From positions 124,001 through 188,000 of the forward strand of contig NZ_QPJM01000009.1 of NCBI RefSeq assembly GCF_003337575.1: DNA of 64,000 nt, written 5' to 3'. A program made the position numbers and the translations under genes. This document shows, piece after piece, positions 152 through 12,075 of this stretch. The notes beneath the pieces were generated by a model. That model saw nothing but the letters and a program-made list of their open reading frames with translations. It had not been told where the DNA came from and did no database searches. Source of the stretch: Phyllobacterium bourgognense. GTDB lineage: Bacteria > Pseudomonadota > Alphaproteobacteria > Rhizobiales > Rhizobiaceae. Positions within the stretch are counted from its first letter, which is position 1. Each line of letters opens with the position of its first letter.

Positions 152-868
152 TTACAGGCTTACGAACGACGTAAACTCTTCTACCTCAAGTTTCATGTTC
201 GTCATATTATTTTCAGCAAGACTATTGTCTGCGAACCCGAGAGACATGCCGGCTACAACCATGTCCTTGTCTGCGAATCCAAGCTCAGCTCTCAGAAGTG
301 GATTTTGAAGCGACCAGATCTGCTGTGCGCAAGTGTCTATGCCTCTCGCTTTCGCTGCGAGCATAATGTTCTGGAGAAAACAGCCGTAACATATGAAGCT
401 AGCCCACTCCAGTTGACGATCCATCGTGAATATAATGCCAATGGGCGCTTCAAAGAAGCGGAATTGACGTTCCACATCCCGCATCCGGCCATACTTGTCA
501 CTTCGAGGAACACCCACAGCATCACCTAATTGCCCTCGAAATGTGTTAAACCGCCCAAGAAATGGATCGGGAAGTGGTTGAGGAAAAAACGGATATTCTG
601 GAGCTAGTTTTTCGGGTCCAGCACGAAAGACCTCTACCGCCTTGGCGGTAATCCGGTTTTTGCCGTCGCCGCTCAACACGTAGCACTGCCAAGGTTGCGT
701 ATTACTCGAACTGGGAGCAAACCGGGCGACATTCAGAATGTCCTTAACAACCTCTAGAGGCACCGGCTTGTCAAGAAAACCTCTTTTTGCTCGTCGATCA
801 ATCATCACCTGGTCGATATCGAATACGTTCGGCGTATGTCTTACTTCTGTCTCCAAAGCGGTGTGCAT
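152..868 (-). CDS. nitroreductase family FMN oxidoreductase
   Basis: A 238-residue protein of the NAD(P)H-dependent FMN nitroreductase fold. The N-terminal part has the family's basic FMN-contacting stretch (RRAKRGF, about residues 27-33) followed by the ARFAPSSSNTQPW motif that packs on the flavin. A later aromatic segment (ICYGCFLQNIMLAAKARGI) is typical of the dimer-interface helices. Such enzymes reduce nitro groups or quinones; in tcp/had chlorophenol clusters a nitroreductase-like protein acts as quinone reductase beside the monooxygenase. It is the last gene of the minus-strand catabolic run. The ATG at 868 has a GGGGA ribosome site a few bases upstream. The fold is clear; whether the substrate is a nitroaromatic or a quinone is inference. 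Confidence 0.88.
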   Translation of the reverse strand: MHTALETEVRHTPNVFDIDQVMIDRRAKRGFLDKPVPLEVVKDILNVARFAPSSSNTQPWQCYVLSGDGKNRITAKAVEVFRAGPEKLAPEYPFFPQPLPDPFLGRFNTFRGQLGDAVGVPRSDKYGRMRDVERQFRFFEAPIGIIFTMDRQLEWASFICYGCFLQNIMLAAKARGIDTCAQQIWSLQNPLLRAELGFADKDMVVAGMSLGFADNSLAENNMTNMKLEVEEFTSFVSL

Positions 869-1029
869 GATGAATTCCCCTTTTTTAGTTTGATTTTATC
901 AAGCCAGGGAAGTCTATGGGAGAACTGCAAATTGGGAAGACATCCACCTTGTACACATAGTTGCGTAAATCCGAACGATGACCGCGTATGGGTATTACTT
1001 CGAGTTAGTCTTCGACAAATTACAAGCCA

Positions 1030-1632
1030 TCACGTCTGTATTAGTTCAATCCACCCTTCCTGTTGCTTGACGCGAGCCAGCCAGAGCAAAATCGCGGGAA
1101 ACCGTGTCATGTCGTAACCGCCCTGCGAGGCGAGTGCCACATACGCAAATACGCCCAAATCCGCTATGGTATAGCGATCGTCGACGAGCCAATGACGTCC
1201 TCCGAGTCCACGCTCAAGCTTCTCCAGCCCGTTATAGCCATCCGTATGAAATCGCTCTATTTGCTGAGACATACGATCGGCCAGCCCTCGCAAATGATAT
1301 ACCCGCGGCAGCGCGATAGCCCGCTGAAGATCGGCTTGTTCGAAAAACATCCAACTCGTGACTTCAGCCCTTAGATATTGATCATCGGGAAAAAAGGGGG
1401 TGCCGGCAGCCAAGTATTGCAAAATCGCGCCTGATTCAACAATTGTCCGGCCATCCGCCAATTCCAATACGGGCACTCGTGCGAACCGACTAATTTTCTG
1501 GAACTCGGCGCTGTTGGTATCACCCTTTTCGAGGTCGAGTGTGATACGCTCGTACGGCAACTGAAGTTGGTTTAATAGTATGCGGACTTTCCAGGAATTC
1601 CCAGAAAGGCGGCTATCGTAAAGTCGCAACAT
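1030..1632 (-). CDS. glutathione S-transferase family protein
   Basis: A 200-residue cytosolic GST. The N-terminal thioredoxin-like domain (about 1-78) starts MLRLYDSRLSGNSWKVRILL, with Ser near position 9 or 12 as the likely glutathione-activating residue. It holds the cis-proline segment (ARVPVLEL) and the ESGAILQYL motif that binds the gamma-glutamyl group. The C-terminal helical domain keeps the YTIADLGVFAYV N-capping/hydrophobic-staple motif. In aromatic pathways GSTs carry out reductive dehalogenation, ring-opening isomerisation or detoxification. Its place beside a nitroreductase and chlorophenol-type genes suggests one of these, but the substrate cannot be read from sequence. The ribosome site before the ATG at 1632 is weak. 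Confidence 0.88.
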   Translation of the reverse strand: MLRLYDSRLSGNSWKVRILLNQLQLPYERITLDLEKGDTNSAEFQKISRFARVPVLELADGRTIVESGAILQYLAAGTPFFPDDQYLRAEVTSWMFFEQADLQRAIALPRVYHLRGLADRMSQQIERFHTDGYNGLEKLERGLGGRHWLVDDRYTIADLGVFAYVALASQGGYDMTRFPAILLWLARVKQQEGWIELIQT

Positions 1633-1765
1633 CTATCGAGGCCCCGAGATCGAGTGAGCATGGATAGAGGTTAGCTTCGCAATGGGCGTTTGGCTATAGC
1701 AGGCGGCGTTCAGGAACGCCCAAAGCAGACACGGTGACTTTGGCTTTGGCAACCACTGACCATCG

Positions 1766-2194
1766 TCAACCCGCGATATAAGATCGTATGTACTCTGCTT
1801 CGCATTCAATGGCACGAACGTGGTGCTTCACGGCATCTCCGATCGAAATTATTCCAACTAGATGTCCGTCGTTTTCAACCGGGAGATGACGTGCCCGCAG
1901 TGTATTCATCATTTCCATCAAGGTATTAATGCCGGTGGTCGGTTTGCAGCGGTGCACGTTAGTCCACATAAACGATTCAATAGGCTGAGCTAGTGCGACC
2001 ATCCCGTGTTCAGCTATACTGGCTACGATGTCCCTTTCAGTAAAAATCCCCTGAATTCTCCGGTCGCTGTCGACAATCACCAACGCTCCGATATGATGTT
2101 CGTGCAGGACCTTGCAAGCGTCGCTCACCAACATATGCGGTCCAGACGTGACTACATGGGATCCCTTTTCTTCCAGAATAGAACTTACTGACAC
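1766..2194 (-). CDS. tandem CBS-domain protein
   Basis: A 142-residue protein made almost wholly of two CBS motifs, about residues 8-65 and 75-135. Each has the (V/I)GxxT/S-type end of the family (GIFTERDIVASI and GIISIGDAVKHHV). Stand-alone CBS pairs bind adenine nucleotides (AMP, ATP, SAM or NADH) and act as energy or redox sensors. It starts at GTG 2194 behind a good GGAGG site 8 bases upstream. It lies between the amidase and the GST on the same strand and may share their transcript. A link to the aromatic pathway is not evident; related stand-alone proteins are common in Rhizobiales stress regions. Confidence 0.85.
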   Translation of the reverse strand: MSVSSILEEKGSHVVTSGPHMLVSDACKVLHEHHIGALVIVDSDRRIQGIFTERDIVASIAEHGMVALAQPIESFMWTNVHRCKPTTGINTLMEMMNTLRARHLPVENDGHLVGIISIGDAVKHHVRAIECEAEYIRSYIAG

Positions 2195-2265
2195 GCTGTG
2201 GTCCTCCTTCGCGGATACGCCAGTATTCTTCGGCTCAATTTTCCAATCTGACTTTCGTTCGCTCG

Positions 2266-3690
2266 TTAAGGTACCGGCGGAATTTCGATCAAAACTTCGA
2301 CTGGTTGAGTTTCAGACGGGTCCCTGGACAGTATAGCCTCGATATTTCGCGCCAGCGCGATGAGCGCATCGTCTTCATCTCTGCGTCCTACAATTTGCAA
2401 TCCGATGGGTAATCCCGAGCCGAGGACGGGCATCGGGATCGAAATTGCCGGAAAGCCAGCAATATTAAAGGGTGATGTGTAGGTCATCATCGCTTCGCGA
2501 ACGGTTCCCGACCAATCGCCGATCCTAATCATATCGATGCCACGCTTAGGAGCGACGCAAGGTGTAGTGGGCGTCATCAAAAATCTGAAACGCTTCATAA
2601 GCTGATGGAGATCTGTAATGAAATCCCAGCGTGCTTGAAGATTTTGCGCATATTCGCCAACGGTGGATGTTTTGGCCAGTTGGAGGCGCGTCATCGTTTC
2701 ATGGTTATACGAACTAGCCATCAGCTCTAATCTGTTCCGGGAAAAATGGGTAATGCCCCCCTCCATGAGCACTATGCCAGCAAACACCCGAAATTTGTCA
2801 GCAAACAACGGGCATGACCCAATGCGTTCAATTTCAAGATCGCCGGAAAGCAATTCGATTGAATGATCAAATGCCACCGCGACGCATTCCTCAACCGGGA
2901 CATTCGCGATCGTGTCAATCACGCCAATCTGACCGCGCAAAGTCGGCTCATAGCCAGAACTCAGACCAAGGGCTTCTGCTAGAAGCGTCACGTCTCCAAC
3001 GGTCTTACCGAGGATGCCTGGATGGTCCAGTGTGGGCGCAAGGGGAAAAATCCCGTTCGTGGAGAGGCGGGAATACGTTGGTTTGAACCCAACTACGCCA
3101 CATAACGACGCCGGAATCCGAGCCGAGCCGCCCGTATCTGTACCCAGACCACCAGCAATGGCTCCAAATCCAATCGCCGCTGCGGTTCCTCCACTCGAAC
3201 CCCCGGGGATGCAATTCGGATCGTGCGGATTGAGCGTATCACCGAATCTGGGACTAGAGGTCGTTACTCCCCACGCAAATTCGTGGGTTGTCGTTTTCCC
3301 GATTATGATCGCGCCTTTATCCTTCAACACCCGGACAATGTCGGCGTCGTGAGATGGCCGATGACCTATGTAAGCTGCCGATCCATAACGGGTTTCGATG
3401 TTTTCGGTATCAATTATGTCCTTGACCGCTATGGGCAACCCTTCGAGCAATCGAGCCGTACCGTTGCTATAGCGTCTATCGCTTGCAGCAGCGGCCTCCA
3501 AAGCAGTTTCGGTGGCGATTACCGAGTATGCATTGAGAGCGACACGGCTACGTTCGGCTTCATCCAGTGCAAGTCGAGTTAGCGCTACGGCCGTTGTCCG
3601 GCCGGTGTCGAGTTCCTCCCGCATTTCATGGAGGGTTTTGGCACCTCGTCTGAAGTCTGGGGCTAGTCTGTGTGAATGTTTCGTCACCAC
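2266..3690 (-). CDS. amidase signature (AS) family hydrolase
   Basis: A 474-residue amidase-signature enzyme with its Ser-cisSer-Lys triad visible: Lys90 in GLPIAVKD, Ser165 in the GGSSGG loop and Ser189 in TDTGGSARIP. The 24-residue gap between the two serines fits the family. Members hydrolyse aryl or alkyl amides, and relatives include indoleacetamide hydrolase, aryl-acylamidases and GatA. It starts at GTG 3690 (or the next GTG), 7 bases inside the end of the upstream reductase gene, with GAGGG just before it, so translation is probably coupled. Its position inside a phenol/hydroquinone pathway suggests release of an aromatic or ring-fission acid from an amide; that is inference. GatA itself is unlikely, since no gatB or gatC is nearby. 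Confidence 0.9.
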   Translation of the reverse strand: MVTKHSHRLAPDFRRGAKTLHEMREELDTGRTTAVALTRLALDEAERSRVALNAYSVIATETALEAAAASDRRYSNGTARLLEGLPIAVKDIIDTENIETRYGSAAYIGHRPSHDADIVRVLKDKGAIIIGKTTTHEFAWGVTTSSPRFGDTLNPHDPNCIPGGSSGGTAAAIGFGAIAGGLGTDTGGSARIPASLCGVVGFKPTYSRLSTNGIFPLAPTLDHPGILGKTVGDVTLLAEALGLSSGYEPTLRGQIGVIDTIANVPVEECVAVAFDHSIELLSGDLEIERIGSCPLFADKFRVFAGIVLMEGGITHFSRNRLELMASSYNHETMTRLQLAKTSTVGEYAQNLQARWDFITDLHQLMKRFRFLMTPTTPCVAPKRGIDMIRIGDWSGTVREAMMTYTSPFNIAGFPAISIPMPVLGSGLPIGLQIVGRRDEDDALIALARNIEAILSRDPSETQPVEVLIEIPPVP

Positions 3691-4796
3691 ATGCCCTCTA
3701 GTAGCGTATTCAGCTTCTCGGAAGGGTCGATGCCTAAGTCCGAAACTTCGTTCGCGTAGTTGGACGTCAGCAAGGATGCGACTTCTGAAAGTTTTGACCG
3801 CTCAAGACCAAAATCACGGAGCCGACTTTGAAGTTTGAGAGTTTGGACGAGAAGCGATATTTGGTTGGCTAGCGCAGATGCCGGATCGATTGCACCCGGA
3901 GTAAAAACTCGAAGCTTATCTCCGTAAAAATCAGAGCAAGCCCTTACTACGGGTGCTAGAGTGATGCACGAGGTGGCACTGTGAGGAAGGCCAAATGTCC
4001 CGCCAAGAATGTGCCCAATTCTGTGACTCAACCCATAGATGACAGAGGCAGGATAAAAATAGCATTGCCAAGCTGCGAGTTGTAGTTGAATTAGATCGTC
4101 GGCTGTGACCAAGCCCCGCTCAAGCGCAACGTTTGTCTCGTGTTGGTCGGGCCATGTCATAAGAACGGAAAAAAATCGCTTCACTCCGCTCGCGGCCATT
4201 ATCGCATGCGGATGGTCCTTATCGATCTTTCGCATACCTTCTACTGCATGATCGATGCTTTTGATCGCAGAAGATAAAAGTAGCAATCGTGGGGTGCCCT
4301 GAATAAGGACGGGATCCATGACGACTAGCCGGGGGACCGTTTCCCGGACCGCGTAACTTCGTTTGAACTTCTGAGGACCGTTTGTCTCGGTGATTCCGAA
4401 GTAGTGCGAAAACTCCGAGCCGGAAAGTGTCGTGGGCAAAGCAACAATTGGCAGATATCGGCCGGTCTTTCGCTGGTGGAAGTGTGATACCGCCTTCGCG
4501 GCATCCAGAACAGACCCTCCACCAAGCGCGATTATGGAGTCAGCATCATTCGCGAAGCACGAATCGAGTGCCTGCTGTACGGCAAAGTCTGGAACGTGTG
4601 GTGGCAGGTCGCTGAAGAGACCTGCACCATTTTCAACATTTGGTTCGATATGGGTGCGGTACAGCGCCTCCAGCGGCTCAACAGTGAAGGTTATGGGCCG
4701 TTTCATGCCGTAGTCATGCAGTTTAGCGATGGATTTCGCCAGAATGTCGGTGCCCCAAACCACATAGTCTTGGGGCAGGCATTTCAACTCATTCAT
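3684..4796 (-). CDS. iron-containing alcohol dehydrogenase family protein, divergent maleylacetate reductase-like
   Basis: A 370-residue member of the group III dehydrogenase / maleylacetate reductase family. The dinucleotide loop GGGSVLDAAKA (92-102), the PTTLSGSE segment (121-128) and the three C-terminal histidines His258, His262 and His272 are present. The residue that is Asp in iron enzymes and Asn in most maleylacetate reductases (second half of the SGMNAxAHAVEA motif) is Lys179 here, followed by His183. It sits directly downstream of the VOC dioxygenase, as PcpE follows PcpA, so reduction of maleylacetate or a related ring-fission product with NAD(P)H is likely. It is clearly less typical than the second copy at 8321-9397. 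The ribosome site is weak (GGGATC). Confidence 0.8.
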   Translation of the reverse strand: MNELKCLPQDYVVWGTDILAKSIAKLHDYGMKRPITFTVEPLEALYRTHIEPNVENGAGLFSDLPPHVPDFAVQQALDSCFANDADSIIALGGGSVLDAAKAVSHFHQRKTGRYLPIVALPTTLSGSEFSHYFGITETNGPQKFKRSYAVRETVPRLVVMDPVLIQGTPRLLLLSSAIKSIDHAVEGMRKIDKDHPHAIMAASGVKRFFSVLMTWPDQHETNVALERGLVTADDLIQLQLAAWQCYFYPASVIYGLSHRIGHILGGTFGLPHSATSCITLAPVVRACSDFYGDKLRVFTPGAIDPASALANQISLLVQTLKLQSRLRDFGLERSKLSEVASLLTSNYANEVSDLGIDPSEKLNTLLEGMW

Positions 4797-4865
4797 AAGA
4801 CTGATCCCACATGAACAATTAAAAACCGACTAGAATTATTGTGACTGCAATGGCTAGAACTAACC

Positions 4866-6029
4866 TTACTCAAGCACTGGAACGGGCGCGGGCCGGAATG
4901 CCAAGTGGCGTTCAATTGACGTTCTGTTTTGTTCGTTCTTTTCCGAAAGACAGAGCTTTTCTCCAAGCGCCGCAACATCTTCGTCTACAGTGAAGTCGCT
5001 GGGTGTCGAGAGCGCACAAATATGGCCATCAGGATCTCGGAAATGAAATAATTGCGAATAAATCGAGTCCTGAATCGAAGAGACATCAATTCCGAGTCGT
5101 TTTAGCCGGGCGTGCTCACTTTTCAGTGCTGCATCATTCTCCACTTGCAGGCTGAAATGGTGCGATAGACCAGTACCCAAGCGTCCGGAGGTGTACCCTG
5201 GAAGCCCGAAGAAAGTTAGAACCGAGCCTGGCGAGATATTGTCGTCGCAAGCATAGTAGTAGTGGGTTCCACCCTTCTCATCGAGATAGTCCGTCTTCTT
5301 GATCAGATGCAAACCTACCGTGTCGACAAAGAACTTCTCGGTCCGCTCTGCATCACTTGAAATGGAAGTGATGTGATGGAAACCACGCAATGCGAAATCT
5401 GGAGTCACGGTGGGTACCGGGTTTGGCCAAGTTTCGGCCGCGACTAATATTTCATCTCTTCCACCGATAAGATTCTCTTTTGGCTGCGGTCGGTAGCCCG
5501 AGCCCAGCACGGTTTCATCATGACCGAAGCCTGGCTCGGAAGTGGCAATTTCGATGATCGCCCCATCCGGATCGCGGAGATAAATGGCGTGAAAGTAATG
5601 ACGGTTATATGGACCTGTAACATGAACGCCGAGATCAGTAAGGCGGCGCTTCCATTTTAAAAGCCCGTTGCGATCCGGGACATGAAGAGCCAGGTGATGA
5701 TTTGTTCCTGCACCCCACCGTCCCTTTGGATCACCTACACGCGGTGAGGCTACACCGCGAGCAGTCTGATCTGCTTCTACAAATCCCTTCTCCGGAATCA
5801 TATAAAAAATGGGGTTCCACTCGACATAGGTTATGGATTCACCGCGAATGCCCTCGTTGGGAAACCTGCGGAAGCCAAATGTGGTGACGGGGAGACGCTC
5901 GTCGAGGTGATGAACGGTGCGCTTGACCACGGGCAATCCCAACGCTTCTGTATAAAAGCGCTCAGTGCGCGTGAGGTTCGCGGTTATGAAAGTCTGGCTG
6001 TTGACGCCGCTGACGACCATCTGATTCAT
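4866..6029 (-). CDS. VOC-family ring-cleavage dioxygenase with halves in swapped order
   Basis: A 387-residue vicinal-oxygen-chelate protein of four beta-alpha-beta modules, related to the hydroquinone dioxygenases PcpA, LinE and MhqO. In those proteins the iron ligands are His in module 1 and His plus Glu in module 4. Here those places are Ser11 and Ala339, with only His291 kept. The complementary set is intact instead: His112 and Glu160 in module 2 (GTNHHLAL and IIEIATSEPG) and His219 in module 3 (GFHHIT). The N-terminal half ends with the EIATxxPGFxHDE motif that closes the canonical proteins. The likely reaction is Fe(II)-dependent cleavage of a (substituted) hydroquinone beside its hydroxyl, giving the substrate for the adjacent reductase. 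The start is supported by AAGGTG upstream of the ATG at 6029. About 30 extra residues follow the last module. Confidence 0.85.
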   Translation of the reverse strand: MNQMVVSGVNSQTFITANLTRTERFYTEALGLPVVKRTVHHLDERLPVTTFGFRRFPNEGIRGESITYVEWNPIFYMIPEKGFVEADQTARGVASPRVGDPKGRWGAGTNHHLALHVPDRNGLLKWKRRLTDLGVHVTGPYNRHYFHAIYLRDPDGAIIEIATSEPGFGHDETVLGSGYRPQPKENLIGGRDEILVAAETWPNPVPTVTPDFALRGFHHITSISSDAERTEKFFVDTVGLHLIKKTDYLDEKGGTHYYYACDDNISPGSVLTFFGLPGYTSGRLGTGLSHHFSLQVENDAALKSEHARLKRLGIDVSSIQDSIYSQLFHFRDPDGHICALSTPSDFTVDEDVAALGEKLCLSEKNEQNRTSIERHLAFRPAPVPVLE

Positions 6030-6319
6030 GTTTCACCTTCATGTTTCATTAAAAGAGCTGCCCATGTCACGCTGTGTAGTCATAGGGACGGTAGTCCGAT
6101 TATGCGGGTCGCAGAAGCTGCCATGGGGCAAACGGAGCGTCCAAAAATTTGGACGCACTTGGATTTGAAATTTAGGCTAACGCTCCCAAACGCTGCAGGC
6201 GATAAAACTTCCAATAAGAGTGCGGAGTGGAGTGCGTTCCAAAGACCTGTTGAGCCGTATGCCCCACCTTGCAAGGGATTAGTCCGCTCGCGCGACTGCG
6301 CAAAAGCGGACTGTTTTTG
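6030..6319. other. intergenic gap, about 290 bp
   Basis: This gap separates the wrbA stop from the VOC dioxygenase start; both genes are read on the minus strand. Short frames on either strand show no family resemblance. It is long enough to hold a separate promoter for the dioxygenase-reductase-amidase group, but no convincing -35/-10 pair or palindrome stood out. Confidence 0.4.
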
Positions 6320-6949
6320 TTATACTGCTGCGCCAATAAATTGCGCATCTCGCAAACCTCGTGCCACGGACGTGACCCGCCGGCCTTGGAAGTTGGCTAC
6401 AGCAAGATGAGCCTCGTCAGGTCGCAACGAGTCTTGAGCGGATACGTGGGTTGCACCGTACGGCGTTCCTGCCCCGAACATAGACGGATCAGCGTAACCA
6501 AGTGGGACGATAATAAGCCCGAGGTGAGCCAATGTCGTATAGATAGACAAAAGTGTCGACTCGTTGCCGCCATGCTTCGAAGAAGTGGAGCCGAAAACAG
6601 AACCCACTTTGCCGTTAAGTTTTCCCTGAAACCAAATTCCCCCCAAACTGTCGATGTATGCCTTGAGCTCCGAGGAGATGGAGCCGAACCTTGTGGGTGT
6701 GCCAAATACAATGGCATCGGCCCAGTCTGCATCGTCTTCGGTTGGAGCTTCATAGAGAGCATTCATTTTGTCTGCGCTTTCTTGCCAGCCTAATACTTGC
6801 GCCATGACTTCGGACGTCACGAATTCTCTAGCGCGCCGCAGGCGAACTTCAGCACCCAGTTGGCGCGCGCCGTCCGCAACTGCGTTGGCCAGAGTTTCTG
6901 TCGAGCCGTTTCTTGAGTAGAATGCGATAAGAATCTTGGGTTTGGTCAT
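6320..6949 (-). CDS. wrbA: NAD(P)H:quinone oxidoreductase, type IV (WrbA-like flavodoxin fold)
   Basis: A 209-residue flavodoxin-fold protein. The N-terminal phosphate-binding loop YSRNGSTETLA (about 11-21) binds FMN phosphate. The central FGTPTRFGSISSELKAYID segment and the later HGGNESTLLSIYTTLAHLGLIIVPLGY stretch are the WrbA hallmarks. These tetrameric enzymes reduce quinones by two electrons. In this cluster the natural role is to reduce a (chloro- or nitro-derived) benzoquinone made by the FADH2 monooxygenase to the hydroquinone used by the ring-cleavage enzymes, as PcpD or the tcp/had quinone reductases do. The start ATG at 6949 has a GAGG site 6 bases away. Confidence 0.92.
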   Translation of the reverse strand: MTKPKILIAFYSRNGSTETLANAVADGARQLGAEVRLRRAREFVTSEVMAQVLGWQESADKMNALYEAPTEDDADWADAIVFGTPTRFGSISSELKAYIDSLGGIWFQGKLNGKVGSVFGSTSSKHGGNESTLLSIYTTLAHLGLIIVPLGYADPSMFGAGTPYGATHVSAQDSLRPDEAHLAVANFQGRRVTSVARGLRDAQFIGAAV

Positions 6950-7412: not shown

Positions 7413-8297
7413 TTATGTCGAAGCTTTTGCGAGGACGAAGTTCTGCTTTATCTCCCAGAATTCTGTATTGAACCCGTATTCGGCCGCGCGAGATTCATCG
7501 TGCGTGCGTTTAAATTCAGCGAGCAAACTCTCTTTCACGCCGAATACTGCATCCGAGGAGATGTAGGGATCATCGCGATCAAAGATGTGCGTGATAAGTG
7601 TTTCGAAACCGTCCGCCTTTATCAGATAATGAAGATGAGCCGGTCGATAGGGATGGCGACCTAAAACTCCCAATAGCTGACCGACGGGGCCATCATTCGG
7701 TATTGGATAGAACTTTGGTCGTACAGCTCGAAACCAGTATCGACCGTCTTCTCCCGTTCTGAAAACACCCCTTAGATTGAAATCGGGTTGCAGGCCTTTC
7801 TGCTGTACATCATAAAAACCCTCGTCATTGGCCTGCCAGACGTCGATCGTCGCATTATTTATCGGTGCGCCCTTTGTATCCGTGATGCGTCCATGCACGA
7901 ATGTCTCTTCACCCTTGGCGTCGAGGCAAATGTTCTCGCCCATCGATCGTTCTGGAGCACCCTCTACGTGAAAGGGACCAAGCACTGTGCTTTCTGAGGC
8001 ACCGTTAGGTTTGCGATGATTAATTGAATCAACCAGCATTGAAACACCCAGAACATCAGAAAGAAGAATGAATTCCTGACGCGACTGATCACACATTTGT
8101 CCCGTTCGAGTGAGGAAAAGGATAGCTTGCATCCATTCCTCATGCGACGGTTCTATCTCTTTAACAGCCTCGTGCAGTTTCCGGGTCACAACTTCCAGAA
8201 TGGTTTTAAGACGTTCACTTTTGGCGTCATGATTCCTTCCCGTAACCAATTCGATGGAGTTATCTTCCGAAAAGTAGTGTTTTTGATCGGCTGTCAT
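7413..8297 (-). CDS. hydroxyquinol 1,2-dioxygenase (intradiol ring cleavage)
   Basis: A 294-residue intradiol dioxygenase. Non-haem Fe(III) ligands are identifiable as Tyr162, Tyr197 (in KFYPIP), His221 and His223 (in PAHLHYLI). The N-terminal 100 residues form the helical linker domain that dimerises in catechol and hydroxyquinol 1,2-dioxygenases, and GPFHVEGAPE precedes the beta-sandwich as in this subgroup. The reaction converts (chloro)hydroxyquinol plus O2 to maleylacetate. It lies directly downstream of a maleylacetate reductase gene (24-base gap) and the monooxygenase, the arrangement of tcpA-C-D and hadA-C. GGGAGAG precedes the ATG at 8297. Catechol dioxygenase is a possible alternative; the context favours hydroxyquinol. 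Confidence 0.93.
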   Translation of the reverse strand: MTADQKHYFSEDNSIELVTGRNHDAKSERLKTILEVVTRKLHEAVKEIEPSHEEWMQAILFLTRTGQMCDQSRQEFILLSDVLGVSMLVDSINHRKPNGASESTVLGPFHVEGAPERSMGENICLDAKGEETFVHGRITDTKGAPINNATIDVWQANDEGFYDVQQKGLQPDFNLRGVFRTGEDGRYWFRAVRPKFYPIPNDGPVGQLLGVLGRHPYRPAHLHYLIKADGFETLITHIFDRDDPYISSDAVFGVKESLLAEFKRTHDESRAAEYGFNTEFWEIKQNFVLAKAST

Positions 8298-8320
8298 TTC
8301 TCTCTCCCTGGATTAGTCTC

Positions 8321-9397
8321 TCAGCTTCCGTTTTGCGTTCGTAAATTGCCTGTCCACGCGTTTTGGAGCAGCGAGCGAATTGACTCGATTTCGATTGTAC
8401 GAGGGTTCCAATATTGATTTTGGCTTGCCACCTGGGCCGCCTGCTCCAGATCGTCGAGGCTCATGGATCCGGCAATCTCGGCAAGGCTTGTTTTTGCTCC
8501 CAGTCTATCTGCCAGGTCGAACAGCGCAGCGGCGGGATCTGTCGTTCGCAACGCGTCCTTAAGGCGCTCAATAGCATCGGGAACGGCCGGAGCGTTGTAT
8601 GCCAATACATGAGGAAGGATTACAGCGTGGGTGTCCGCGTGTGGCAGGTCGAAAAGGCCACCCAGCACATGACATAGTTTATGATGCAGCGCCATTCCCA
8701 CAGAGCCGAGGCAAATACCCGATAGCCAAGCTCCATAAAGAGCGTCTGCTCGAGCGTCTTTGTCTAGGGGGTTGTCTATCACGCGCGGTAGCGCAAGTGC
8801 CAATGTCTTAACGGCATCTGTCGCTATTAAACTAATGACAGGATTTCTGTCCTTGGCATACATCGCCTCGACGGCGTGGGCCATGGCATTCATCCCGCTG
8901 GTTCCAGAAACAGATGCGGGAAGAGTCATGGTGAGATCTACGTCATAGATGACCACTTCGGGCAGTATTCTGGTGCTGCTTTTCGTATGTTTCTGTCCCT
9001 CGTGAGTCTCTCCAAGGATCGGGGTCATCTCTGACCCTGCATACGTCGTGGGTATAATGATTTGCGGCAGATCGGTCCGGTAAGCCAAAGCTTTTGAAAG
9101 ACCCGTGGTCGACCCGCCACCGATGGCAACGAAGCCATCGATGTTTCGGTCACGTACTACTGCCAATGCGTCGTCAGTTCTCGAGACCGGGGTGTGCATT
9201 GTAGCATGCGGGTACAGCCCTGCGGACAGTTTTCCGAGCCGATCACAAATTCCACGAGCGTCCGCTTCCTGTGCCGGTGCGGATAGAACGAGTACACGTG
9301 AGAGACCGAGGCGGTCTACCTCCGACGGCAAATCAGCGATCGTTCCCGAGCCAAAGATTACTCGCGCGGGCAGACCGTTGTAAACGAATGAAAGCAT
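8321..9397 (-). CDS. maleylacetate reductase
   Basis: A 358-residue iron-containing-ADH-family protein close to classic maleylacetate reductases. GGGSTTGLSKA (93-103) binds the dinucleotide. SGMNAMAHAVEA (167-178) carries Asn170 where true iron enzymes have Asp, as expected for this family. His238/239, His243 and His253 form the substrate pocket (HHKLCHVLGGLFDLPH). It reduces maleylacetate to 3-oxoadipate with NAD(P)H and can remove a 2-chloro substituent. The frame is open to 9469, but the start is placed at ATG 9397, where the usual N-terminus MLSFVYNGLPxxVIFG begins behind an AGGAACG site. It lies between the monooxygenase and the hydroxyquinol dioxygenase and probably shares their message. 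Confidence 0.94.
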   Translation of the reverse strand: MLSFVYNGLPARVIFGSGTIADLPSEVDRLGLSRVLVLSAPAQEADARGICDRLGKLSAGLYPHATMHTPVSRTDDALAVVRDRNIDGFVAIGGGSTTGLSKALAYRTDLPQIIIPTTYAGSEMTPILGETHEGQKHTKSSTRILPEVVIYDVDLTMTLPASVSGTSGMNAMAHAVEAMYAKDRNPVISLIATDAVKTLALALPRVIDNPLDKDARADALYGAWLSGICLGSVGMALHHKLCHVLGGLFDLPHADTHAVILPHVLAYNAPAVPDAIERLKDALRTTDPAAALFDLADRLGAKTSLAEIAGSMSLDDLEQAAQVASQNQYWNPRTIEIESIRSLLQNAWTGNLRTQNGS

Positions 9398-9474
9398 CGG
9401 CGTTCCTAATTTTGGGCGAGCAAGCGGCGTGTTTTTGCTCACGCCGCCGGTCCGCGACGACGTGAGCAATGGAG

Positions 9475-11058
9475 TTAATGTTTCGCGATGTTGCCAATGT
9501 ACCCTTCGTGGACATCCTGGTCTCGCGCGTATTGCGGTTGGAAGCGTACGTTCGCATAGTGCGAAAGTTTTTCCGCCTCTTGAGCCCGCTTCCCAAGATC
9601 CGCCGTGTCGCCGAAGCCCAGCACATCACGTGCCAATTGAGTCAATGGTCCATCGACGTGGTACTCGGTGCGCTGCAACGTCAACAGATTGATGAGATAG
9701 AGTGGCGTTCCATTGAATTTTTCGAACATTTCATGGCGAGTTCCCCATTCCGTTAGGAACCGTTCGCTGATCTGCCGGAAAATCTTGATGCGATCGACGG
9801 CGCTAATTTCAGAACCACGTAGTGCCTCGGCCAACTTTGGTCCGATGTATGGATCATCCATTTCACGCTTGGTTGGCTGTAGAACAACGCCACGGCCACA
9901 AAACTCGATCAGCATGTTGACCATCCGATGCTGATTTTCAAGGTAATGAGCACGGCCGAAATCGATGTAAATATTGTTCGGTTTGAACAAGCCTCCCGGC
10001 GTGGCAAACCCTGTTTCTTCGGCAGCCAACATGAAAGCGGTACATGTTTCCCGAAACCGGATCATTTCGGCGAGCTGTGATTGTACGACCGGATTTGAAC
10101 TTGTGCCCAGTGATTGGGTCAGCAGGAGAGCAAGTCCAACCATTAGTTCAGCATGCACGCAGTGCCTGATTTGTGTTTCAAGATGCACCCAGTCAAATTG
10201 ACGTTGAGGATACCACTTGGCGTGATCAGGATTGCCAATGTGTTGAACCTGAGACCAGGGTATCAACACGTCATCAAAGTAGACCATGGCGTCGAGTTCA
10301 TCGCCGATCGTAGCCAACGGTCGATCATAGGGATCGGCATCAGGTTCCGCTCGCGATTCTCGAGCGACAACGGTAACACCCGGTGTCGCGACAGGAACCA
10401 GCGCATAGATTGTTTGCTCCGGTGTCTGCCCCGGCCGCCAAAGGTTGCCAACAAGAATGTGGTTCACGAAAGGCACGGAAGTTCCGATAGCTTTCCAACC
10501 GCGTACCAAAATTCCGTCATCGCGTTCCTCGACAATACTAAGCATTGGAGTTTCCCCCAAAGCATCAGTCCGTCCGCGATCGTATTGAACATCGACAAAC
10601 ATCGGCGAAATTGCCAAGTCTTTCGTGGTCACTTCATCCCATTGCCGCTGAATATTGCCTGTAAGATCGCGCTCGGCTCCTTTAAAACGAGAGTTCTCTG
10701 CCCAAGGTGCTTGATCGTCCACCTGGGTGTACATAACCACGTTCATACCGGCTGGCGGGCGAGTAAAAATACCTCCTTGGAAATGCCTAAAGATGAAATC
10801 GGCGTACTTTCGGCGGCGGATGGTGTCTTCCTTTGATCTCGGCAAAAACCAGTGCATGGACTGGCGGTTGCCTTTCTCGTCGATGAACGTTGTTATGTCT
10901 TGGTGTTCAGGGTCGAGGTGAAGATCGTAGTACTCTGCAATTGCTTGCGCATAGCCCCGCGTTTTGGGGTGACTGGTAATGTCCTCGATTATCTCACCAC
11001 CAACATATACTTTGCGGCCATCCCGCAACGAATCCAAATACTCTTTACCTGTTCTCAT
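9475..11058 (-). CDS. FADH2-dependent aromatic monooxygenase (HpaB / TcpA / HadA family)
   Basis: A 527-residue acyl-CoA-dehydrogenase-fold monooxygenase of the 4-hydroxyphenylacetate 3-hydroxylase family. The N-terminal domain starts with RTGKEYLDSLRDGRKVYVGG. The mid-domain DWVHLETQIRH segment holds His292, close in position to the phenol-deprotonating His of HadA as I recall it. The C-terminal part has the conserved WGTRHEMFEKFNGTP stretch. Enzymes of this type use free FADH2 to hydroxylate halo- or nitrophenols with loss of chloride or nitrite. The partner flavin reductase is two genes upstream, and the product-processing genes follow downstream. A strong GGAGG site is 5 bases before the ATG and the start overlaps the SnoaL-like gene by 14 bases. 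The substrate (chlorophenol or nitrophenol) is inference. Confidence 0.93.
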   Translation of the reverse strand: MRTGKEYLDSLRDGRKVYVGGEIIEDITSHPKTRGYAQAIAEYYDLHLDPEHQDITTFIDEKGNRQSMHWFLPRSKEDTIRRRKYADFIFRHFQGGIFTRPPAGMNVVMYTQVDDQAPWAENSRFKGAERDLTGNIQRQWDEVTTKDLAISPMFVDVQYDRGRTDALGETPMLSIVEERDDGILVRGWKAIGTSVPFVNHILVGNLWRPGQTPEQTIYALVPVATPGVTVVARESRAEPDADPYDRPLATIGDELDAMVYFDDVLIPWSQVQHIGNPDHAKWYPQRQFDWVHLETQIRHCVHAELMVGLALLLTQSLGTSSNPVVQSQLAEMIRFRETCTAFMLAAEETGFATPGGLFKPNNIYIDFGRAHYLENQHRMVNMLIEFCGRGVVLQPTKREMDDPYIGPKLAEALRGSEISAVDRIKIFRQISERFLTEWGTRHEMFEKFNGTPLYLINLLTLQRTEYHVDGPLTQLARDVLGFGDTADLGKRAQEAEKLSHYANVRFQPQYARDQDVHEGYIGNIAKH

Positions 11059-11476
11059 GACCTGCCTCCACAGTTGGAATGTTCAATTGTTTTTGGAACG
11101 TTGCAGCGTCCCAATAGTCATCGCTGCGAAAGATCAGACCGTCCAATAGGTACAAGACTTGAATTCCACGCAGCGATATTTTTTGTCCTTGAGGACGATA
11201 AGGACCCATTTGAGTTTGGAGTGTCGCGCTCAGCACATACGGAATCGCGATTGTGCCATTGTCATCCGCAATGCTTGGTGCCGGTTGCCAACGGGCATCT
11301 GGAAACCAGCCAAAAAACGTCGCAAGACCGTCAGCAATTGCCCGTCTGCCATGTTTAGCACGGCCATGTGCTACATCCTCATGCGTTGCATTTTCCGAAT
11401 ATAGTTTGGCCACACCATCACAATCGTGATTGTTGTAGGCAGAATAAAGCAACTCGTCGACCGAAGCTGAACTCAT
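11045..11476 (-). CDS. SnoaL-like / NTF2-fold small protein
   Basis: A 143-residue single-domain protein with the NTF2/SnoaL pattern: the N-terminal helix VDELLYSAYNNHDCDGVAKLYSENATHED, then FFGWFPDARWQP, and beta strands ending in the GLIFRSDDYWDAATF segment. The fold occurs in polyketide cyclases, ketosteroid isomerase and ring-hydroxylating dioxygenase small subunits. It is interlocked in the operon: its ATG overlaps the flavin reductase stop by 4 bases, and its end overlaps the monooxygenase start by 14. Tight coupling to the two-component monooxygenase argues for a job on that enzyme's substrate or product, for example tautomerisation of a quinone or dienone. No catalytic residue can be assigned with confidence. 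Confidence 0.85.
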   Translation of the reverse strand: MSSASVDELLYSAYNNHDCDGVAKLYSENATHEDVAHGRAKHGRRAIADGLATFFGWFPDARWQPAPSIADDNGTIAIPYVLSATLQTQMGPYRPQGQKISLRGIQVLYLLDGLIFRSDDYWDAATFQKQLNIPTVEAGHENR

Positions 11477-12075
11477 GCCAGGGCTCCTTCGCTCAATACT
11501 TGATCAACGGAAACGCCGTGCATGTATTGGCCATCGCCATACAGCAAAGGCAACTTCGCTGCCGGGGCTAGTATTGAATCCACGGAAGCGATGAGAACTA
11601 AGTGGCTCTTTACGAGGAATTCGCAGTTGACCTTGCAATCGAAGGTCACCAATGAGTCACGCAGCACCGGCATCTTAATACGATCAGGCAGCTCATCTTT
11701 TGGAATTTCAAAATCCTCGATGAATTTGTCGGAGCCGGCTCGCGAGCAATGTTGCGATATGTTTACCTGTTCCTGGCTCAGCACGTTGACCGCAAAACGC
11801 GCGTCCGCGGTGATATTTGCAGCTGTAATGGTGTTTCGGTTAACGCATACGATTAGCGTGGGAGGGTCCATACATGCGGGTGCAAAAGCACTGACCGTCA
11901 TTCCCCAAGGCCGATTCTCGTGCCTTGTCGTTATGACCGTTACCCCACCTATGAATCGCCGCATAGCGGTTCGGAACGTTATCGATTCGGATCCACTGTC
12001 CAAATCCCAATGTGGAACCGCCGGAGTATTTTCAGTCCCGAGCATAGGTAAGATTGTGGGTGATTTGATGAACAT
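11473..12075 (-). CDS. flavin reductase (partner of the FADH2 monooxygenase)
   Basis: A 200-residue FMN-binding split-barrel protein of the HpaC/TcpX/HadX family. Typical segments are FRTAMRRFIGGVTVITT near residue 35, the flavin-binding MTVSAFAPACMDPPTLIVCVNRN stretch, and AANITADARFAVNVLS. It reduces FAD (or FMN) with NAD(P)H and supplies the reduced flavin to the monooxygenase by diffusion. It is the first gene of the minus-strand operon, with an excellent AGGAGG site 6-7 bases before ATG 12075, and faces the LysR gene across a 160-bp divergent promoter region. Confidence 0.93.
   Translation of the reverse strand: MFIKSPTILPMLGTENTPAVPHWDLDSGSESITFRTAMRRFIGGVTVITTRHENRPWGMTVSAFAPACMDPPTLIVCVNRNTITAANITADARFAVNVLSQEQVNISQHCSRAGSDKFIEDFEIPKDELPDRIKMPVLRDSLVTFDCKVNCEFLVKSHLVLIASVDSILAPAAKLPLLYGDGQYMHGVSVDQVLSEGALA

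Follow-up and report, generated by a model that had tools for sequence, protein, structure and literature searches.

The 64,000-nucleotide stretch of Phyllobacterium bourgognense DNA analysed here, which we call the window, encodes on its minus strand (4866..6029) a 387-aa protein that is probably an Fe(II)-type hydroquinone ring-cleavage dioxygenase: a single-chain, four-module VOC protein that keeps the chain order of the canonical PcpA/LinE/MhqO type, has its catalytic set in the inner barrel and takes the place of MnpC in an mnp-type gene cluster. Such a fold would hold two pseudo-equivalent barrels, an outer one made of modules 1 and 4 and an inner one made of modules 2 and 3. Known relatives work with the outer barrel, whereas the window protein would work with the inner one, its outer barrel being without a full set. 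The predicted site would comprise three iron ligands (His112, Glu160 and His219) and five second-sphere residues (His111, Arg143, Tyr150, His218 and Thr221). Proteins of this form are termed mirror-type below.

The minus-strand reading frame is real, and a purine-rich stretch lies immediately 5′ of its ATG. Among the Pfam models, the general Glyoxalase (VOC) model matches two stretches of the protein and Glyoxalase_6 is the only other one passed; no NCBIfam model reached its cutoff, and no specific Pfam or NCBIfam family was assigned. The closest solved relatives in a PDB search are MhqO (3oaj), 1zsw and PcpA (4huz), with which the window protein shares the four-module VOC chain, the C-terminal tail and the types of ligand and second-sphere residues; the difference is that the catalytic residues lie in modules 1 and 4 in the known type and in modules 2 and 3 here. 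A literature search over titles and abstract openings found the window protein described nowhere, and annotated homologs are named just “VOC family protein”.

To compare the two forms, we aligned 27 mirror-type sequences (the window protein, five plasmid copies and 21 of 22 loci from a genome scan, an interrupted copy, L066, being excluded) and 46 canonical proteins, the distinct ones among 48 PcpA/LinE/MhqO-type ORFs. The canonical ORFs were chosen by an N-terminal piece matching the C-terminal half of the query, excluding ORFs incomplete at the end of a locus as well as the distant L006; since the set was selected by that crossing, crossed matches in these 46 proteins are not independent evidence. 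By alignment, His112 (5694..5696, minus strand), Glu160 (5550..5552, minus) and His219 (5373..5375, minus) fall on PcpA chain residues 227, 276 and 11, which we take to be the iron ligands of PcpA. Likewise, PcpA positions 10, 13, 226, 259 and 266 are presumably second-sphere. A review gives two His and one Asp as the iron ligands of PcpA (PMC3727088), against which the residue aligned to the PcpA carboxylate ligand is Glu in all 46 canonical proteins.

The first-pass annotation had reported Ser11, His112, Glu160, His219, His291 and Ala339 from the translation, and all six are where it put them, as are the motifs EIATSEPGFGHDE at 160-172 and HHIT at 218-221. Across the mirror-type alignment, His112 and Glu160 in module 2, His219 in module 3 and His291 are invariant (27/27), position 11 is Ser in 21 sequences and Asn in six, and position 339 is Ala in 26 and Arg in one; in none of the 27 are the ligands of modules 1 and 4 complete. 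Canonical proteins have His in module 1 and His plus Glu in module 4 in 46 of 46 cases, which bears out the outer-barrel pattern stated earlier for the PcpA/LinE/MhqO type, and none of the 46 has His at the ligand position of module 2 or module 3. Glu is found at the module 2 ligand position in seven of them (e.g., L069, L070 and L073, and including LinE and a PcpA-like protein), the inner His being gone; this inner Glu is a possible relic of a second site.

Second-sphere residues follow the same exchange. Canonical H10, T13, H226, R259 and Y266 are each present in 45-46 of the 46 proteins, and their counterparts H111, R143, Y150, H218 and T221 stand at the swapped sites in all 27 mirror-type sequences. 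In the outer barrel of the mirror-type set, position 10 is His in 2/27, position 13 Thr in 20/27, position 290 His in 27/27, position 322 Arg in 0/27 and position 329 Tyr in 5/27. The outer barrel is thus degenerate yet not blank, since His290 and His291 are kept throughout and Thr13 in 20 sequences. From module 1 to module 4, pairwise identity averages 0.703, 0.914, 0.870 and 0.695 in the mirror-type set (n=27) and 0.541, 0.358, 0.296 and 0.525 in the canonical set (n=46), a reciprocal pattern expected if catalysis takes place in modules 2 and 3 here and in modules 1 and 4 there. Ligand and second-sphere homology together with this module-wise conservation support the earlier proposal that the active barrel would be built from modules 2 and 3. 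A non-catalytic or regulatory VOC protein would fit the fact that literature and database searches gave no activity or structure for any mirror-type member, but a complete and strongly constrained catalytic set, along with the MnpC-slot pattern described below, makes this very improbable.

An inner-barrel site is already known for this topology from the solved toxoflavin-degrading enzyme TxDE (TflA; 3oul, 3pkv). In the structural report, the motifs of TxDE pair 1-4 and 2-3 with the metal in the 2-3 domain, the ligands being His-60 (beta 5), Glu-113 (beta 8) and Glu-138 (beta 9); motif 2 supplies the His from its first strand and a Glu from its last, motif 3 supplies the remaining ligand from its first strand, and the closest structure to TxDE is 1ZSW (PMC3143149). 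This precedent agrees with an active barrel in modules 2 and 3, but the window protein does not belong to the TxDE/TflA type as described there: the third ligand is Glu in TxDE (a 1-His-2-carboxylate set) and His219 in the window protein, TxDE has 221 aa against 387, and there is no significant sequence match between the two (~11 bits, E ~1). Two-domain glyoxalases, according to two further papers, have one active and one cryptic site (PMC5412262, PMC12490080). The plant two-domain glyoxalase I (5d7z, 6bnn) resembles the window protein in its tandem VOC arrangement with one working and one cryptic site, and differs in its chemistry, with a similarity to the window protein of ~28 bits.

AlphaFold models of the window protein are of low confidence, with a mean pLDDT of 47.9 for the full length and 39.4 for modules 2-3, and although Foldseek ranked 1zsw and 3oaj first for the full-length model, the TM values were just 0.17-0.18. 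As both models are poor, we make no claim from geometry, and iron binding and the arrangement of the barrels are what we infer from the alignments.

How the chain is ordered is a separate question. A single-sequence search gives crossed matches, with residues 215-335 of the query matching MhqO 7-124 and residues 102-175 matching MhqO 208-281. Plasmid homologs and those from related genomes match the C-terminal half of the query with their N-terminal half, and the C-terminal half of most of them pairs with query residues ~100-180; it pairs collinearly instead in L012, L026, L045 and 1zsw. Ligand and motif positions had led the first-pass annotation to a permuted or half-swapped protein, and the best local matches, crossed against MhqO and most of the selected canonical proteins, are indeed what a circular permutant with canonical modules 3-4 placed ahead of 1-2 would give, its active barrel being the same in substance. 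In a 3-4-1-2 permutant, module 1 should resemble canonical module 3, module 4 should resemble canonical module 2, and the tail should lie in mid-chain.

We compared the 27 mirror-type and 46 canonical sequences module by module as profiles with hhalign. Module 1 (residues 6-82; 5784..6014, minus strand), with Ser at ligand position 11, scores 60.6 against canonical module 1 and 28.7 against module 3. Module 2 (residues 102-170; 5520..5726, minus), which holds H112, E160, H111, R143 and Y150, scores 136.7 against canonical module 4 and 37.4 against module 2. Module 3 (residues 213-282; 5184..5393, minus), with H219, H218 and T221, scores 109.9 against canonical module 1 and 29.3 against module 3, and module 4 (residues 282-349; 4983..5186, minus), where H291 is kept and the Glu position is Ala339, scores 81.2 against canonical module 4 and 41.7 against module 2. 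The order by profile is canonical 1, 4, 1, 4 and not 3, 4, 1, 2. With E-values of 1.7e-29 for module 2 against canonical module 4 and 5e-23 for module 3 against canonical module 1, these resemblances are beyond chance. The ranking did not change when the columns around the ligands were masked (56.6 vs 19.9 for module 1, 87.0 vs 29.5 for module 2, 82.8 vs 14.4 for module 3 and 64.0 vs 37.2 for module 4), and convergence at the ligand motifs alone was rejected as an explanation on this ground. What the first-pass annotation had missed is that module 1 is canonical module 1-like too, and that module 4 and the tail are like canonical module 4 and its tail.

The C-terminal tail (residues 349-387; 4869..4985, minus) is homologous to the canonical C-terminal tail (E 8e-12), and a tail HMM matches the C-terminus of all 27 mirror-type sequences and no other place. 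For the inner segment after module 2 (residues 170-199; 5433..5522, minus) the canonical tail is the best comparison, but with E 0.015, a probability of 3% and no tail HMM match it is doubtfully tail-like. The canonical linker, searched as an HMM, yielded 26 matches, of which 23 start at residues 195-209, the collinear place; these are weak (mean ~7 bits, best E 0.18), and leaving out the last residues reduced the matches to five. Against PcpA, the family profile aligns PcpA 142-316 collinearly with residues 201-379, from linker to tail, and against MhqO it gives weak collinear linker and tail pieces alongside the crossed ones. The HMM built from the canonical N-terminus, a stretch that closes with the HHVTS motif, has its 18 matches at the start of module 3 rather than module 1. 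Profiles, tail and PcpA alignment thus all give the module and tail order of the PcpA/LinE/MhqO type, the linker does so weakly, and the N-terminus HMM speaks against it.

Modules 1 and 4 are unlike canonical 3 and 2, also when masked, and the tail is C-terminal in 27 of 27 sequences and mid-chain in none, so the permuted or half-swapped protein first proposed is not supported. As a test that would count against permutation, it had been suggested that the N-terminal half should best match the canonical N-terminal half; this is what module 1 does, and module 2 does the opposite. Collinearity with PcpA from linker to tail and of the C-terminal half in 1zsw, L012, L026 and L045 also weighs against permutation, and the crossed matches themselves would equally be expected if active modules that evolve slowly are simply each other's best matches. 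Module identity and the place of the tail rule against circular permutation as the simplest reading. It is left formally possible by a tree of the barrels, in which active barrels group with active ones at 85/60, and the N-terminus HMM match to module 3 also speaks for it; taken together, we regard it as distinctly unlikely. The best reading of the sequences is that the window protein has the PcpA/LinE/MhqO chain order with catalysis in the inner barrel.

The barrel tree contained 25 canonical and nine mirror-type representatives with two barrels each (68 rows, 142 columns), and all four groups formed separate clades. The support of 85/60 slightly favours the permuted grouping, but the alternatives stand, collinear orthology with a p-AU of 0.394 and a duplication of the lineage's own with 0.296. 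Because long degenerate branches could pull together in such a tree, the history was judged by module order and tail, and with moderate confidence. The simplest history would start from an ancestor whose two sites were equivalent, with each lineage retaining a different one. We tentatively extend this to a broader proposal, a little short of an even chance, that a PcpA/MhqO ancestor carried two iron sites, that its descendants kept opposite ones, and that the resulting mirror-image enzymes interchange at one step of mnp-type pathways.

Another possible origin is an independent duplication, in which a one-barrel unit of module 1, module 4 and tail was doubled in the mirror-type lineage apart from the canonical one. 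Every module being 1- or 4-like speaks for it, as do the strong likeness of the two halves (Smith-Waterman score 130, 21.6 s.d. above 200 residue shuffles), the compatible tree (p-AU 0.296) and the existence of a single-unit homolog, PDB 9u42, with a match running into the tail. On the other side, modules 1 and 4 are closer in score to their canonical counterparts than to the chain's own modules 3 and 2, and the interdomain linker pattern agrees, weakly, with the canonical one at the same place. We give this origin roughly one chance in four, and prefer the loss of opposite sites from a common two-site ancestor. PDB 9u42, a 182-aa single-unit VOC protein called a homogentisate dioxygenase in its entry title, aligns with modules 3-4 and a portion of the tail, and it is a candidate outgroup for a one-unit ancestor.

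The gene lies in a run of seven that extends from 152 to 6949 of the window in one direction. On the minus strand these are an MnpA-like nitroreductase (152..868; Pfam), a glutathione S-transferase family protein (1030..1632; Pfam GST_N/GST_C), a CBS-domain-type small protein named from an annotated Sinorhizobium homolog (1766..2194), an MnpE-like amidase (2266..3690; Pfam Amidase) that in the ORF list overlaps the next gene by 7 bases, an MnpF-like, maleylacetate-reductase-like iron-containing dehydrogenase (3684..4796; best PDB match named MAR1), the dioxygenase gene itself and a WrbA-type NAD(P)H:quinone oxidoreductase (6320..6949; NCBIfam above cutoff). A cluster in Cupriavidus pinatubonensis HN-2 holds a nitroreductase, a ring-cleaving dioxygenase, WrbA, an amidase, an iron-dehydrogenase and a GST. 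Identity to the HN-2 proteins is 69% for the nitroreductase, 53% for the amidase, 64% for the reductase and 76% for WrbA; there is no significant match between the two GSTs, and the two dioxygenases share no more than a 31% match over 121 columns.

A second co-directional unit follows at 7413-12075 of the window, with a catechol/hydroxyquinol 1,2-dioxygenase-like protein, a distant second iron-dehydrogenase of the maleylacetate reductase type, an HpaB-type monooxygenase, a flavin reductase and, by sequence reading, a small SnoaL-like protein. The two units would meet at maleylacetate. Monooxygenase and ring-cleavage neighbours were seen in one (L061) of 27 fetched mirror-type loci.

For the Cupriavidus mnp genes, the published work describes a nitroreductase MnpA, an aminohydroquinone dioxygenase MnpC and a GST-type MnpD, with the amidase MnpE and the maleylacetate reductase MnpF named by BLAST; C1-C2 cleavage by MnpC with an amide as product was proposed, and in vitro MnpC is also active on hydroquinone and chlorohydroquinone (PMC5604080). 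For these two substrates a product that absorbs near 320 nm is reported. MnpC (homolog at L082:9225-10175) is like the window protein in having nitroreductase, WrbA, amidase and maleylacetate reductase genes as neighbours and in its reaction, which on the side of the window protein is predicted. It is unlike it in its outer-barrel ligands and its 316 aa, and its matches to the window protein and relatives are partial (~28-41%), some crossed and some collinear. By analogy, a nitroreductase route and a mutase would lead to aminohydroquinone, the mirror-type enzyme would cleave this between C1 and C2 to an amide, the amidase would presumably hydrolyse the amide to maleylacetate, and the reductase would convert maleylacetate to 3-oxoadipate.

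We searched 72,556 plasmids with the reductase, the amidase and the mirror-type protein of the window and with MnpC. For the reductase, 17 top-ranked records match over the full length at 57.8-66.4%, the next among the matches listed being at 27-33%, and the amidase at E up to 1e-60 recovers 17 records with the very same accessions. Thirteen of these carry the mirror-type protein and four a canonical MnpC; MnpC at 78% or more is confined to these four records, its identity elsewhere staying below 60%. Mirror-type protein and MnpC occur together in no plasmid record of the 72,556 at the cut-offs used, in a test that covered plasmids and in which canonical homologs of lower identity are common. 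The 13 mirror-type plasmids (60-80% identity) come from Sinorhizobium, Rhizobium and Ensifer, and because nine of them are from the one species Sinorhizobium medicae the number of independent cases is smaller.

We further inspected 27 fetched mirror-type loci, which include L066 and five of the 13 plasmids and exclude the window. As flanks extended to 8 kb at the most and less where a contig ended, neighbour counts are lower bounds: reductase in at least 24, amidase in at least 24, GST in at least 17, nitroreductase in at least 14, the CBS protein in at least 13 and WrbA in at least 12. The three loci where reductase and amidase were not found are from Bradyrhizobium, and no MnpC match above 64.7 bits occurs in any of the 27. 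Taken together, the mirror-site enzyme probably replaces MnpC as the aminohydroquinone dioxygenase of these clusters.

The substrate may vary, given that a nitroreductase was found in 14 of the 27 loci and that the three Bradyrhizobium loci have neither reductase nor amidase. The same catalytic site might serve hydroquinone, chlorohydroquinone or another diol rather than aminohydroquinone, as would agree with the in vitro activity reported for MnpC itself (PMC5604080) and with the 13 of 27 loci, with their short flanks, in which no nitroreductase was found. But the amidase, which an amide product explains, is present in 24 of the 27 loci and in all 17 reductase plasmids, and we hold another substrate to be possible, at somewhat under one chance in three, with aminohydroquinone as the preferred one.

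The 22 loci of the genome scan include Rhizobiaceae and other rhizobia, Bradyrhizobium, Inquilinus, Leisingera, Ruegeria and an Aurantimonadaceae MAG (L066), and a Solirubrobacterales MAG locus holds a mirror-type protein at 53%. The Aurantimonadaceae copy (L066:172-1304) is interrupted, as the length of its match is not divisible by three and a 265-aa ORF covers the later part alone. Ahead of the mirror-type gene in Leisingera (L056:1008-5058) we read 3-oxoadipate CoA-transferase subunit-like, thiolase-like and amidohydrolase-like ORFs, which fit a route from maleylacetate to 3-oxoadipate because such a route would need them. Elsewhere in the genome of the window (contig C13, L002-L005), two canonical-type dioxygenase homologs lie close together on opposite strands.

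Beyond the window's own genome, no full ortholog was found in overlapping sets of 385 genomes from the class, 397 from the order and 398 from the phylum, which count the own genome and were scored for the few best candidates of each genome; partial matches turned up in four other genomes of the phylum set. Among 98 related genomes the best match to the window protein has E 9.9e-21, and the matches listed are partial ones. The reductase was found in 1/349 (phylum) and 1/20 (genus) genomes, both times the window's own, and scanned viral contigs held one canonical locus and no mirror-type one. The mirror-type gene appears to be a rare accessory one, known to date from rhizobia and other Alphaproteobacteria plus the one Solirubrobacterales MAG.

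If the reading given here is true, the window protein would be a naturally occurring example of an entire active site, with its three ligands and five second-sphere residues, placed in the other of two symmetric barrels, with both barrel forms serving the same pathway step. It would bring a second kind of ring-cleavage enzyme into mnp-type clusters and give a function to genes annotated just as “VOC family protein”, and the loss of single sites in tandem-duplicated enzymes would become directly testable.
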